Assembly: GCA_030263595.1 (NCBI GenBank) | Contig: SZPG01000022.1 | Coordinates: 1 to 64,000, forward strand | Source: Chloroflexi bacterium CFX6 | Lineage (GTDB): Bacteria > Chloroflexota > Anaerolineae > Anaerolineales > Villigracilaceae | Reading direction: 5' to 3' | DNA length: 64,000 bases | In this document: positions 4,642 through 61,920 of the stretch, piece after piece | Position numbering within the stretch: position 1 is the first letter of the stretch | Layout: every line of letters starts with the position of its first letter | Notes under the pieces: model-generated | Told to the model about the DNA's origin: nothing | The model's input: the letters and a program-made list of their open reading frames with translations, nothing else | Database searches by the model: none | Made by a program: the position numbers and the translations under genes

Positions 4642-4742
4642 GGTCTGATAGTCTAATAGTCTGATAGTCTAATAGTCTAATAGTCTGATAGGCTGATGGT
4701 CTGATAGTCTGTCAGATAGGCTGATAGGTTGAGAGTCAAATA
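4642..4742. repeat. Degenerate 8-bp tandem repeat, GTCTGATA family
   Basis: About a dozen units of 8 bases (GTCTGATA, GTCTAATA, GGCTGATA and close variants) fill the gap between gap and pgk. Units differ by one or two substitutions and one unit carries a 4-base insertion. One of several unrelated short-word families in this window. Confidence 0.88.
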
Positions 4743-25000: not shown

Positions 25001-25141
25001 CGATTTACGATTTGCGATTTACGATTGACGATTAGCGATTTGCAATTGCGCGGGACGATTAGGATACAAAACTGCTCACTGGTCACTGATTACTGATTAC
25101 GGATCACTGATCACTGGTTACTGCTCACTGCTCACTGCTTT
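25001..25141. repeat. Two degenerate 7-bp tandem-repeat families between xseA and xseB
   Basis: Bases 25001-25049 carry CGATTTA/CGATTTG/CGATTGA units. Bases 25071-25141 carry ACTGATT/ACTGATC/ACTGCTC units. The second family runs into the 3' end of xseA and supplies its stop codon region. Together they leave no room for other features. Confidence 0.85.
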
Positions 25142-26646: not shown

Positions 26647-26722
26647 GCTTTCCACTTTCCACTTTCCACTGCCCACTGATTACTGATGACTGATAACTGA
26701 TCACTGATCACTGATAACTGCT
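26647..26722. repeat. Degenerate 7-bp tandem repeats (CTTTCCA and ACTGATN families)
   Basis: Three to four CTTTCCA units (26647-26672) pass into ACTGATT/ACTGATG/ACTGATA/ACTGATC units (to 26722). The second family is the same as 25071-25141 and the first matches the run inside xseA. Confidence 0.85.
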
Positions 26723-42862: not shown

Positions 42863-44599
42863 CTACAGCGTCATCGCGCAGCCGTCCGCGCGTGGATCGC
42901 TTCCCGCGCACAGAACGCCTGATTCCTCATCTCGCAGAATCACCTGTCCCCTGCCGAACAAGGCGCGTTCATAGCCTGAAACCCAATACACAGGATGTCC
43001 CATCTTTTCCAAAGCAGAATAGGTTTCCTGCGGCATGTTCTCTTCGATGGCGACGCGCCCGCCCGCTTCGTCCACGTCAATGCAAAAACGCGGGAGGTCG
43101 AGCGCGGATTGAGGGTCTAGACCCGCGTCGTGGAGAGCGGAGAGGACCTGGACGTGTCCCTGCGGTTGCATGAATCCACCCATGACGCCGTAGGAGGCGT
43201 AGAGGACCTCACCCCCAGCCCCTCTCCTGGAAGGAGAGGGGGGTACGCCCTCACCCCCAGCCCCTCTCCTTCCAGGAGAGGGGGGTACGCCCTCACCCCC
43301 GCCCCCTCTCCCCACGGGAGAGGGGAGTCTTGTAACCATCGCAGGGATGATCGTGTGATAGGGTCGTTTGCGAGGCGCGAGGCAGTTGGGGTGATTCGGG
43401 TCGAGGCTGAAGTTGTGTCCGCGGTTTTGCAGGGTGAAGCCCCAGCCTTTGGGGACGATGCCCGTGCCGAAGCCCATGTAGTTGCTGTTGATGAACGAGC
43501 AGGCGTTACCGAATTTATCCACGACGCTGAGATAGACGGTATCAGAGGATGCAACGGGAGTCCCGCGAGAAATATCGAGTGTTGCGCGTTGCGTGTTGAT
43601 TAGTTTGCGGCGTTCGGTTGCGTATTCCTTCGAGAGCAGTTCCTTGATCGGCACGTTCGAAAACTTCGGGTCGGCGACGTACCAACTCGCATCCGCAAAC
43701 GCCAGGCGCAGGGATTCGATCATCAAGTGCATTTTTTCCACGGATAGAACGTCGAGCGACTCCAGGTCGAAGCCTTCGAGGATGTTCAACGCGATGAGCG
43801 CCGTGATGCCCTGTCCATTGGGCGGACATTCGTAGACGCGCAGTCCTCGATACGTGACGGAGATCGGCTCCTCCCACGTGGACACATGCGAGGCAAGATC
43901 ATTCATGGACATACACCCACCCGCTTCTTTCAATACGCTGACAATTGATTCTGCAACCGGACCCTGGTAAAACCCGACAGCGCCCCGCTCCGCCACAACC
44001 TTGAACGTGCGCGCCAGACCGGGGTTGCGGAAGATTTCGCCCGCTTTCGGCGCGCGCCCGTCAATCGTCAATTCGTGACCGTTCAACGCGGACTTCAGTT
44101 GTCTGTCCGCGCCGCGCGCCCAAAAGTGCGCGGTGATCGGCGTGACGGGAAAACCTTCTTCGGCGAGTCGGATGGCAGGCGCAAGGACGTCGCCCATCAA
44201 GAGCGATCCGTGCTTGGCGATCAGGTCGCACCAACCCGCGCACGCGCCGGGGACAGTCACCGTGTGGGCATGGAACGGAGGCAATGATTCAGCGAGGAGT
44301 CCCTCGCGCTTTAGCCGATCCAGCGTCAGGGCGGAAGGAGCCGCACCCGATCCATTGAGGGCGGTGACTTGTCCCGTATCCGCAGAATAATAGAGGGCGA
44401 ACATGTCCCCGCCAATCCCAGTGGAGGTGGGTTCGGTCACGTTGAGCGCGGCGCCCGCAGCGACGGCAGCGTCGGCGGCATTGCCTCCCCTGGCAAGGAT
44501 TTCGAGACCGGCAGCGGTGGCGAGCGGCTGGGACGTGGCGACGATGCCATTACGACCATAGACGGGCGAACGACGGGAGGTGAAGGTGGGCGTTTGCAT
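42863..44599 (-). CDS. ggt: Gamma-glutamyltransferase with an in-frame repeat insertion
   Basis: A 578-residue Ntn hydrolase of the GGT family. The N-terminal part shows GRNGIVATSQPLATAAG and the GTGIGGDMF-like GIGGDMFALYY. The autocatalytic Thr is about 354 in the SDTVYLSVVDKFGNACSF segment. Residues about 424-464 are an insertion of three 14-residue repeats of the VPPSPGRRGAGGEG type, coded by palindromic DNA (43208-43328). They split the normal AMVTR...LYASYGVMGGFMQPQG run. No signal peptide is visible. Probably hydrolyses gamma-glutamyl compounds; whether the insert is tolerated is unknown. The surrounding sequence is intact. Confidence 0.93.
   Translation of the reverse strand: MQTPTFTSRRSPVYGRNGIVATSQPLATAAGLEILARGGNAADAAVAAGAALNVTEPTSTGIGGDMFALYYSADTGQVTALNGSGAAPSALTLDRLKREGLLAESLPPFHAHTVTVPGACAGWCDLIAKHGSLLMGDVLAPAIRLAEEGFPVTPITAHFWARGADRQLKSALNGHELTIDGRAPKAGEIFRNPGLARTFKVVAERGAVGFYQGPVAESIVSVLKEAGGCMSMNDLASHVSTWEEPISVTYRGLRVYECPPNGQGITALIALNILEGFDLESLDVLSVEKMHLMIESLRLAFADASWYVADPKFSNVPIKELLSKEYATERRKLINTQRATLDISRGTPVASSDTVYLSVVDKFGNACSFINSNYMGFGTGIVPKGWGFTLQNRGHNFSLDPNHPNCLAPRKRPYHTIIPAMVTRLPSPVGRGGGGEGVPPSPGRRGAGGEGVPPSPSRRGAGGEVLYASYGVMGGFMQPQGHVQVLSALHDAGLDPQSALDLPRFCIDVDEAGGRVAIEENMPQETYSALEKMGHPVYWVSGYERALFGRGQVILRDEESGVLCAGSDPRADGCAMTL
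43208..43328. repeat. Three tandem copies of the GGAGAGGG palindromic element inside ggt
   Basis: Units begin at 43208, 43250 and 43292: two exact 42-base steps plus a shorter third unit of about 37 bases. Each has the CTCACCCCCAGCCCCTCTCC...GGAGAGGGG pattern and can form a hairpin. The 42-base period equals 14 codons, so the reading frame survives. Copies 1 and 2 differ at a few loop bases (GGAA versus TTCC). Confidence 0.92.
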
Positions 44600-44622: not shown

Positions 44623-44765
44623 GGTGGTTGAGTAGCCCCGTCGCGCTGAGCGGAGCGACAGCGAAGTCGAAGCGTGGCGGGGCGTATCGAAACCACCAAT
44701 AAGCAAAGTGATTCTGGTTAGTTGTGGTTTCGATACGGCGGACTAGCGCCGCCTACTCAACCACC
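44623..44765. repeat. Nested 143-base inverted repeat
   Basis: Outer arms GGTGGTTGAGTAG (44623-44635) and CTACTCAACCACC (44753-44765) are perfect. Inner arms GTATCGAAACCAC (44684-44696) and GTGGTTTCGATAC (44724-44736) are also perfect. Small MITE-like layout in a gene-free gap upstream of ggt; no transposase frame. A half-copy of the GCTTCGCTTCGCTCAG repeat follows at 44813-44835. Confidence 0.82.
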
Positions 44766-48176: not shown

Positions 48177-49178
48177 ATGAACGATCGAAATGAATTGGAA
48201 ACGCTCGTAGAACAACGGCTCGAGGAGATCAAGCCCGCGCCGCCGCGTGACCCGCATAAGGCTGCGCGCGGACGCGCGTTATTTTTGAGCGAGGCGGTAT
48301 CCGCGAGCGCGCTCCCACGTCAGAAAGGGTGGACGTCAATTTTCAAAAAGGAGCGATATGCAATGAACGCGATACTCTCGATACTCGTCGCCGTCGGGCT
48401 GTTGTTCGGCGGGGGGACGGCCGTCAGCGCGGCGCAGGACGACCTGCCCAATGAACCGTTGTACGCGGTGAAGATTTGGACGGAAGATCTCAGCCTGCAA
48501 TTTCAGGACGCGCCGGAAGAAAAGGTGGACCGCCTGATGGACCTGACGCGGACCCGCATTCAGGAAATGATCCGCTTGTCCGAAGAAGGCGAGCCGATCC
48601 CCGACCAGGTGACGCTGCGGCTCGAACAGCACATTCAGCAGGCTTTACAACTCTGCGCGAACATGGACGATCCCACCCTCGAGCGCGCCCTATTGCAAAT
48701 CCGCGATCAACTTCAACAGCAGGATCGCGATATGGAGCGGCTGCAACTCCAAACGCGGGATCAACTCCTCACACAGACCCGCCTGATGATCCAGGAACGA
48801 TTACGACTGGTGGAGGACGGCTTGCTCGATCCTGAAATGTTCCGCGAACAGGCAAGGAACGGCTTCCGCTTCGGGCAGGACGATGAACCGACCCCGCCCG
48901 CGCAGGACGGGAATGGACAGCAACATCAAAACGGTCAACCCACCGAGGCGCCTGCTGGACCGAATACCGATCCCAGTGGACCGAATACCGACCCCGGCGG
49001 ACCCAATACCGACCCCGGCGGACCCAACACCGACCCCGCTGGACCGAACGCCGACCCGGGCGGACCGAATGCCGACCCTAACAGCAACACAAATGATTCC
49101 GATAACGGAGCGAACGGCAACGGCTTGGGAGGGGATAACGCCAACAACAATGGATCGGGCGGAAACGGCAGACCATAA
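48177..49178 (+). CDS. DUF5667-like exported partner protein with a PNTDPGG repeat tail
   Basis: A 333-residue protein. A charged cytosolic N-terminus (1-60) is followed by one membrane span (about 64-85, ILSILVAVGLLFGGGTA). The outside part (about 88-235) has LPNEPLYAVKIWTEDLSL and Gln-rich helices of the DUF5667 type. The C-terminal tail holds six 7-residue repeats (PNTDPGG, PNADPGG variants) and an Asn/Gly-rich end. Its position directly after the ECF gene suggests an anti-sigma or signal-sensing function; no zinc-finger anti-sigma motif is seen. A bidirectional terminator follows. Confidence 0.7.
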   Translation: MNDRNELETLVEQRLEEIKPAPPRDPHKAARGRALFLSEAVSASALPRQKGWTSIFKKERYAMNAILSILVAVGLLFGGGTAVSAAQDDLPNEPLYAVKIWTEDLSLQFQDAPEEKVDRLMDLTRTRIQEMIRLSEEGEPIPDQVTLRLEQHIQQALQLCANMDDPTLERALLQIRDQLQQQDRDMERLQLQTRDQLLTQTRLMIQERLRLVEDGLLDPEMFREQARNGFRFGQDDEPTPPAQDGNGQQHQNGQPTEAPAGPNTDPSGPNTDPGGPNTDPGGPNTDPAGPNADPGGPNADPNSNTNDSDNGANGNGLGGDNANNNGSGGNGRP

Positions 49179-61848: not shown

Positions 61849-61920
61849 TTTACGATTTACGATTGACGATTTGCAATTTGCTATTTGGAATTTGCGATTT
61901 GCGATTTGCGATTTGCGATC
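61849..61920. repeat. Degenerate 7-bp tandem repeat (CGATTTN family), copy 3
   Basis: About ten units (TTACGAT, TTGCGAT, TTGACGAT, TTGCAAT, TTGGAAT and variants) separate the response regulator from its kinase. Same family as 13661-13690 and 25001-25049. Confidence 0.85.

Follow-up and report, generated by a model that had tools for sequence, protein, structure and literature searches.

Palindromes inserted in frame in a gamma-glutamyltransferase gene of a Chloroflexota bacterium belong to a dispersed family associated with DUF559 nuclease genes

Bacterial genomes harbor several kinds of small, repeated palindromes. Holder et al. (2015) reported 3610 occurrences of the TM motif in 262 proteobacterial genomes (PMC4666352); according to the accessible text of that paper, the copies of E. 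coli K-12 are always intergenic and mobility activities were never found around TM. REPs and REPINs form genome-specific families of small palindromes that also flank the gene of their enzyme, the tyrosine transposase RAYT, and different REPs were found at about the same recB site in two Xanthomonas species (PMC3733652). Rickettsia palindromic elements (RPEs), in turn, are known as in-frame insertions (PMC10969869). Here we describe a stretch of 64,000 nucleotides (the window: positions 1 to 64,000 of contig SZPG01000022.1) from Chloroflexi bacterium CFX6, in which three palindromic units lie in frame within ggt, a gene of the gamma-glutamyltransferase (GGT) family. We put the probability at roughly two in three that the ggt insert is a tandemly amplified, non-autonomous mobile TM palindrome and part of a REP/RAYT-like system driven by a Vsr-type DUF559 nuclease.

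How does the insert compare with the described systems? It shares with TM (TMECO, PIT) the C-rich arm, short loop, G-rich arm, 3-nt spacer and second G-rich block, as well as a high copy number that is uneven among close relatives. It departs from TM in location and partner, since CFX6 copies often lie in frame in genes and are linked to DUF559, whereas those of E. coli K-12 lie between genes without a mobility gene. With REP/REPIN and RAYT it has in common small palindromes in genome-specific families, an enzyme gene flanked by the same palindromes, and some copies within genes. RAYT, however, is a tyrosine transposase with GTAG/CGTC tags, while the candidate enzyme here has a predicted Vsr fold and the palindromes have C-rich arms and a G-rich third strand. 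An analysis of the letters alone, the sequence-only reading, had likened the element to RPEs. As regards behavior the comparison is fair: both are open-frame palindromes inserted in frame in unrelated genes (compared by description). RPEs measure about 150 bp and the available portion of the review names no partner enzyme for them (PMC10969869).

The same reading had seen three tandem palindromic units at 42-base steps in an otherwise intact ggt. Both observations are correct: the insert holds three direct repeats with spacings of 42 and 42, and the open reading frame (ORF) encodes a full-length GGT-family protein. Tandem Repeats Finder (TRF) reports 2.8 copies with 88% matches and a score of 175, the sole array there and the highest score among 16 rows for the window. 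The span first given, 43208-43328, was right to within 3 bases; sequence and orthologue alignment place the exact 123-bp insert (Table 1) between ...AMVTR and LYASYG. Its length had been put at about 40 residues, close to the true value, between blocks supposed to be normally adjacent, which they are not quite: empty orthologues have about 5 residues at the site (ASDNS in locus L012), and the net gain in ggt is about 36. A unit consists of a hairpin whose loop has 3 bases, such as CCCCTCTCCT-TCC-AGGAGAGGGG, then three bases and the third-strand block GGGGTGAGG (coding strand). The window contains GGAGAGGG 11 times, where 1.73 occurrences would be expected, and six of the 11 fall inside the insert region. 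The AlphaFold model of the protein has a mean pLDDT of 85 and a body resembling solved GGT-family enzymes (best, 2nlz); the insert sits in the turn between strands 420-424 and 465-472, with pLDDT below 50 for residues 429-461, and is thus predicted to be a floppy extension of a beta-hairpin turn. To judge from the TRF array, the three units look like a tandem amplification of a single element, and the frame is probably maintained by selection on ggt, not by the element.

Table 1. Coordinates in the window of ggt, its insert and the repeat units.
Feature	Position	Strand	Basis
ggt, gamma-glutamyltransferase-family ORF, 578 aa	42863..44599	minus	ORF list; PF01019 E 4.7e-146
In-frame insert, 41 codons, residues 425-465	43205..43327	minus	sequence, orthologue comparison and model
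Hairpin of unit 1 (5' in ggt), GACTC ahead of hairpin on coding strand	43304..43324	.	
Hairpin of unit 2	43262..43282	.	
Hairpin of unit 3	43220..43240	.	
Tandem array, period 42	43207..43325	minus	TRF and sequence

Two other accounts of the units were rejected. The repeat is not a known structured RNA, as none of 24 Rfam matches with E up to 1 attained the gathering score, and we take the weak miRNA matches among them as chance hairpin matches. An assembly artefact, the caveat raised by the sequence-only reading, is contradicted by relatives in separate assemblies, which carry one or two units of the same family at the ggt site (L004, L011, L013, L015, L238, L239, L253 and L291); the units are therefore not peculiar to a single assembly.

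The notion that the sequence was new is not borne out. The unit is the TM (earlier PIT) triplex motif, which the accessible text of Holder et al. reports from hundreds of bacterial genomes (PMC4666352), and its arm sequence is also met in the Enterobacter 638 genome paper (PMC2869309), in the part of it available. By eye, CFX6 units agree with the TM sequence definition (C-rich arm, loop of 3-6, G-rich arm, 3-nt spacer, second G-rich block). The ggt units fit with 10-nt blocks, with inner-end arm mismatches in units 2 and 3; copies L047, L057, L064 and L068 have 9-nt blocks and a 3-nt spacer. The CFX6 genome holds 74 matches for CCCTCTCC-n3-25-GGAGAGGG against 3 for the reversed pattern, or 71 against 2 when the loop is restricted to 3-6. 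We examined 51 of these 71 copies, 48 around the first 50 places listed plus the 3 in the window. Their third-strand block stands on one side in 35 (half-type), on both sides in 10 and on neither in 6. The hairpin core has no stop codon in any of six frames in 41 copies and closes one frame in the other 10; the GGGGTGAGGG block introduces a TGA in one frame.

The TM palindrome is dispersed in this genome and lies in frame inside many genes, whereas in E. coli it is reported between genes. Of the 51 copies, at least 21, from 16 genes in all, sit within a Pfam domain match, in the gap between two matches, or at a point where a match begins mid-profile (Pfam placed all in-gene copies except those of ggt, which were placed by orthologues), supporting the idea that the repeat sits in frame within varied genes. 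These genes encode glutamate-synthase-like and other oxidoreductases, an alanyl-tRNA synthetase, amidohydrolases, a DUF2298 protein, a MalT-like regulator (weak match), a Cas4-like protein, MutS domain II, the editing domain of leucyl-tRNA synthetase (LeuRS), a GMC oxidoreductase, a kynureninase-like protein, two [2Fe-2S] xanthine-dehydrogenase-type proteins, methionine synthase and GGT. The 26 copies in coding loci occur in either orientation and fall into five orientation-phase classes, a spread more in keeping with selection after insertion than with insertion directed to a frame. Most orthologues compared lack the palindrome, in LeuRS as in GGT: 17 loci cover the LeuRS site, where CFX6 (L218) and L219 have an insert, L224 a shorter PSP-type stretch, and 14 none. 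The motif GANTC is the CcrM/HinfI site. Among the 35 half-type copies, 17 (for example L033, L048 and L070) have it no more than 9 nt from the hairpin foot, compared to 9 of 420 background windows.

Is ggt an isolated case? In a first set of 41 genomes, GGT matches were present in 31, CFX6 included, and 30 loci were retrieved, with the loop delimited by motif from PYHT to MGG. It was readable in 25: 11 are empty (26-29 residues) and 14 have inserts in open frames. This way of reading detects open frames only and so cannot alone prove that frames are never broken. The loops of L020 and L025 are also empty, those of L029 and L031 are unreadable at the site, and the distant relative L032 has no insert. 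TM-type palindromes account for 5 of the 14 inserts (three units in CFX6, two in L004, one each in L011, L013 and L015). Four others, L006-L009, hold a different repeat, translated TAKxAKxAK, and by eye L005, L010, L014, L016 and L017 seem to contain further repeats. A second set of 80 GTDB loci, which shares seven contigs with the first, has loops of at most 28 residues in 63 cases and longer ones in 17; L238, L239, L253 and L291 carry one or two TM-family units. The prediction that orthologues lack the insert accordingly holds for most.

The ggt loop is a recurrent landing site at which relatives carry different repeats. Copies of the TAKxAK repeat (forward plus reverse) number 40+46, 59+63, 43+49 and 48+41 in the four genomes that have it in ggt, while the other seven of 11 genomes measured have 0 to 14 each, both strands combined. 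In this case, then, the loop contains the repeat resident in the genome; counts cover TAKxAK in these genomes and the GCTGAGCGGAGC pattern in the retrieved loci, and the dispersed nature of the other ggt and metH loop repeats was judged by eye. As a repeat in its own right, TAKxAK (CCGCNAAGNNCGCNAAG..., often in inverted pairs) has 86-122 matches per genome on both strands of G012, G013, G017 and G019. Just upstream of ggt, at 44623-44765, the window also contains a repeat-like element with inverted arms CGTATCGAAACCACC.../...GTGGTTTCGATACG and outer arms GGTGGTTGAGTAG/CTACTCAACCACC. The pattern of the L010 ggt insert is found here too (L003; count of the GCTGAGCGGAGC pattern in the retrieved loci): the part GCTGAGCGGAGC...GTCGAAGC recurs in the loop of L010, with similar letters by eye in L005. 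Could the insert instead be functional in the enzyme and kept by selection as sequence? The many genomes with inserts at this very loop are what one would expect under such a model, yet the inserts differ in sequence between genomes, the loop is short in most of the second set, and the modeled insert has low pLDDT. We regard a function of this kind as extremely improbable.

A second variable site is the linker of methionine synthase (metH), and it is here that the palindromes meet a nuclease. The CFX6 metH gene has three TM palindromes, with an in-frame DUF559 domain (PF04480) between the first and the second that scores 118.2 bits against a cut-off of 20.6. Among 30 metH loci, 24 linkers could be read by motif: six have an in-frame DUF559 with palindromes, two palindromes alone (by eye), twelve other inserts, and four are short (45-47 residues). 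The linkers of L193-L208 show further insert types, for example GTGLAPVQGAGASPAPT, NYQLPTT and QVDTETGKQVDKET, perhaps other repeat families. Seven metH copies are among the DUF559 loci described below, the six others being 62-84% identical to the CFX6 domain. We computed the ratio of nonsynonymous to synonymous substitution rates (dN/dS) for 15 pairs, dropping pairs with L112 for length; 10 were saturated, and the 5 unsaturated pairs gave 0.06-0.11, with dS up to 1.7. The palindrome-flanked nuclease in metH is thus in frame under purifying selection, and the low dN/dS indicates that its sequence itself is conserved, not the frame alone.

What kind of protein is DUF559? Residues invariant across 43 domains include E18, D47, E58, D60, D73 and R76, of which D47, E58 and D60 are probably catalytic. 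The model (pLDDT 90) matches 3hrl (E 1.8e-7), the catalytic domain of homing endonuclease I-Bth0305I (3r3p, E 5e-4) and E. coli Vsr (E 0.045), with some mitoribosome chains scoring in between; 3hrl, an endonuclease-like protein, also matches DUF559 by sequence (E 7.3e-20). DUF559 is therefore predicted to be a PD-(D/E)XK nuclease of the Vsr/homing fold. Homing endonucleases of the I-Bth0305I type play a role in mobility. Like these Vsr/EDxHD enzymes, which provide its second-best fold match after 3hrl, DUF559 is a small nuclease; in contrast to them, no intron or intein was seen at the loci studied here, whose termini are hairpins. That members of the family can cut DNA in the cell is suggested by Caulobacter VsrA, a DUF559 protein reported to be responsible for the SOS response in cells without the methyltransferase ScmA (PMC12907096).

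Because an in-frame DUF559 lay among the metH palindromes, we tested DUF559 genes at large. A search of 301 Chloroflexota genomes gave a match in 142. We analyzed 91 loci (L078, L079, L085-L113 and L114-L173), the best-scoring matches and not all of them; 60 of the regions were taken in listing order, except that G021:C19 (metH) was advanced and one row merged with its neighbor. Five CFX6 fragments, L080-L084, were excluded before counting. These partial matches cluster within about 4 kb (G000:C133:55276-59242), possibly a nuclease graveyard. Hairpins closely related to TM bracket the DUF559 genes. Perfect C-rich hairpins (arm of at least 9) reach a density of 8.0/kb in the first 50 bp downstream and 6.4/kb at 50-100 bp upstream, compared to 0-0.13/kb at 0.5-4 kb from the genes. 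A hairpin lies within 250 bp at 61 of the 91 loci (61 of 92 if L080 is included) and on both sides at 38. Around the 75 stand-alone genes (DUF559 ORF no longer than 300 aa), a hairpin lies within 150 bp on 74 of 150 flank sides, as opposed to 7 of 372 edges of other genes (plain ORFs of at least 150 aa) in the same stretches. Outside the phylum, we hand-picked 14 loci for variety from 43 matches in a plasmid collection. A C-rich hairpin (arm of at least 8) lies within 250 bp at 10, and on both sides at 4, from Sphingomonas, Deinococcus, Sinorhizobium and Qipengyuania. At the two Picosynechococcus and Pseudanabaena loci, which lack such a hairpin, G/C-rich palindromes of another kind can be seen by eye on either side; one Azospirillum locus and the E. 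coli H240 record likewise lack it.

The flanking arms vary from genome to genome, and within a locus they match. Similarity between the left and right arm of a gene averages 0.873, compared to 0.732 +/- 0.013 after permutation (38 loci), or 0.867 compared to 0.705 without the metH group (31 loci). The arm is identical on both sides at 17 of the 38 loci, where 1.7 were expected and 2000 permutations yielded a maximum of 9. Arms also covary with the nuclease (Mantel r 0.37, p 0.0005, n 55), and leaving out pairs above 65% identity lowers r to 0.32. Two arm types are dispersed, chiefly where the DUF559 of the genome bears the same arm, subject to the limits given below. CTCCCCCCGC hairpins number 127 in G253, where 14 of the 50 listed stand no farther than 4 kb from DUF559, 11 in G147 (5 at DUF559) and none in 20 other genomes. 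Of the CCCCTTCCCT hairpins, G129 has 55, including 13 at most 4 kb away from DUF559; elsewhere they number 9 in G007, 4 in G021, 3 in G126, 1 each in G281 and G025, and 0 in 16 genomes. Whole units also recur at different sites of a genome. L122 and L139, in a single genome, share a 598-bp unit, 93% identical, whose flanks differ between the two places; by eye its ends are terminal inverted repeats of about 70 bp, with the hairpins inside them. Another genome has a 614-bp unit at both L104 and L118, 82% identical, with a common ACCTACCCCC end. Such copies are what a mobile unit would leave. Hairpins and DUF559 are associated at the level of genomes as well: TM (at least 1 copy) and strong DUF559 (E below 1e-9) occur together in 73 of the 301 genomes, TM only in 48, DUF559 only in 32 and neither in 148 (odds ratio 7.0, p 4e-14, in a test that ignores the kinship of the genomes, which counts against our interpretation). 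The link between palindromes and DUF559 is shown by these data; a driving role of the nuclease in mobility is our inference.

Might a tyrosine (Y1/RAYT) transposase move the palindromes, as in classic REPtrons? The CFX6 genome does have five Y1_Tnp matches, and REPtrons as well as GTAG and CGTC REP families within genes are described (PMC3733652). None of the five loci (about 3.3 kb each), however, contains a TM arm or third-strand motif. Across the phylum, 1 of 54 Y1 flank sides (27 loci) has a C-rich hairpin within 250 bp; 8 loci with flanks shortened by contig ends were excluded, and none of these had a hairpin. Presence of Y1 is not associated with TM (odds ratio 1.4, p 0.15), nor does it make a difference within DUF559 strata, whereas the DUF559 effect persists in Y1-positive and Y1-negative genomes (odds ratios 6.0 and 4.3, TM at least 5). 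Among the 35 half-type CFX6 copies, searched on either strand of the tag side, GTAG or its complement lies within 12 nt of the hairpin foot in none and CGTC in one. On the strength of the flanks, the missing genome association and the missing tags we rejected Y1/RAYT as the mobilizer and consider this origin very unlikely.

A more serious competitor holds that DUF559 is a passenger: the hairpins would spread by replication slippage, template switching or gene conversion, and the cassettes merely recombine between hairpins or insert at them. The accessible text of Holder et al. links TM to genome instability and reports no mobility gene (PMC4666352), and the unit arrays resemble slippage products. 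Several results count against a driving nuclease. Fourteen of 56 genomes with at least 10 TM copies, one of them with 151, have no DUF559 match, and incompleteness is no explanation, since 8 of the 14 are at least 90% complete. E. coli, with 23 TMs (PMC4666352), is not one of the two control genomes matching PF04480. No C-rich hairpin lies within 250 bp at 30 of the 91 loci or near the fragments L080-L084. In CFX6, TM brackets the metH copy of DUF559 only, and L078, another CFX6 locus, has by eye other C-rich palindromes with longer loops. Arm-nuclease covariation could reflect co-inheritance. For CCCCTTCCCT, 7 of the 9 G007 copies and the sole G281 copy are the DUF559 flanks themselves, G021 has 1 flank and 3 copies elsewhere, the 3 copies in G126 are near but not identical to the arm at its DUF559, and the G025 copy lies away from the retrieved DUF559 loci. 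Arm-type dispersal is hence evident in G253, G129 and G147 and weak in G021, while G007 and G281 add little. The GANTC tag is weak at DUF559-flanking hairpins (9 and 3 of 137, background 79 of 4225), and we rejected it as a general tag although it is strong for CFX6 TM copies. DUF559 proteins can also have other jobs, VsrA being an example in the accessible text (PMC12907096). A random passenger, on the other hand, would predict neither arms that match on both sides nor arms that covary with the nuclease, neither arm-specific dispersal in G253, G147 and G129 nor the bias to DUF559 over other gene edges. We therefore judge the passenger model unlikely.

How, then, would a system driven by DUF559 work? 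The TM family has the layout C-rich arm, loop, G-rich arm, GGGGTGAGGG, and DUF559 would act on the hairpins, in cis on its own unit and in trans on the small copies. Spread may begin with a DNA cut by DUF559, upon which host repair would copy the element. Insertion would not be directed to a frame; since five or six of the six frames are open in the hairpin core, insertions of 3n bases in exposed loops and linkers could survive selection. The units would then multiply through slippage, in steps of three, and in metH the nuclease and its palindromes may have become a lasting in-frame part of the gene.

Elsewhere in the window, TRF reports arrays of 7- and 8-base repeats at 4643-4737, 25001-25137, 26667-26720 and 61849-61919 (GTCTGATA, CGATTTA, ACTGATC, TTTGCGA). 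At 48957-49078 a 21-bp unit (GGACCGAATACCGACCCCGGC) stands in tandem in 5.8 copies, again with a period divisible by three.

The sequence-only reading is partly supported. What it observed is real and wider in reach than first described, and two larger facts lie beyond it: in other genomes the ggt loop takes up repeats of unrelated kinds, and the palindrome family has a tie to DUF559 genes. The TM sequence was already known; its location within genes is unexpected, and its link to a nuclease of the Vsr/homing type is strong and specific and may offer a mechanism. A search of titles and the beginnings of abstracts found no publication joining DUF559 or Vsr to palindromes or REPs, weak evidence of novelty as most subscription papers lay outside it; the accessible portions of the VsrA paper (PMC12907096) and of PMC12306157 contain no mention of palindromes and of DUF559, respectively. 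On balance we lean slightly towards a broader view, in which hairpin-DUF559-hairpin units form a widespread class of mobile elements in several phyla, an analogue of the REPtron with a Vsr/homing-type nuclease. Their small palindromes would include TM/PIT, with families that track the nuclease, and would have colonized proteins of Anaerolineales in frame, the nuclease being found even inside methionine synthase.

A specific partner enzyme could settle the origin of the TM/PIT palindrome, reported from hundreds of genomes without known movement. It would give many DUF559 genes a role, and would add a second solution, besides RAYT, for the spread of tiny palindromes. The loops of ggt and metH suggest that exposed turns are recurrent landing pads. 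In the case of TAKxAK the loop translates the dominant repeat of the genome, so that repeat DNA could steadily supply new linker sequence to proteins.

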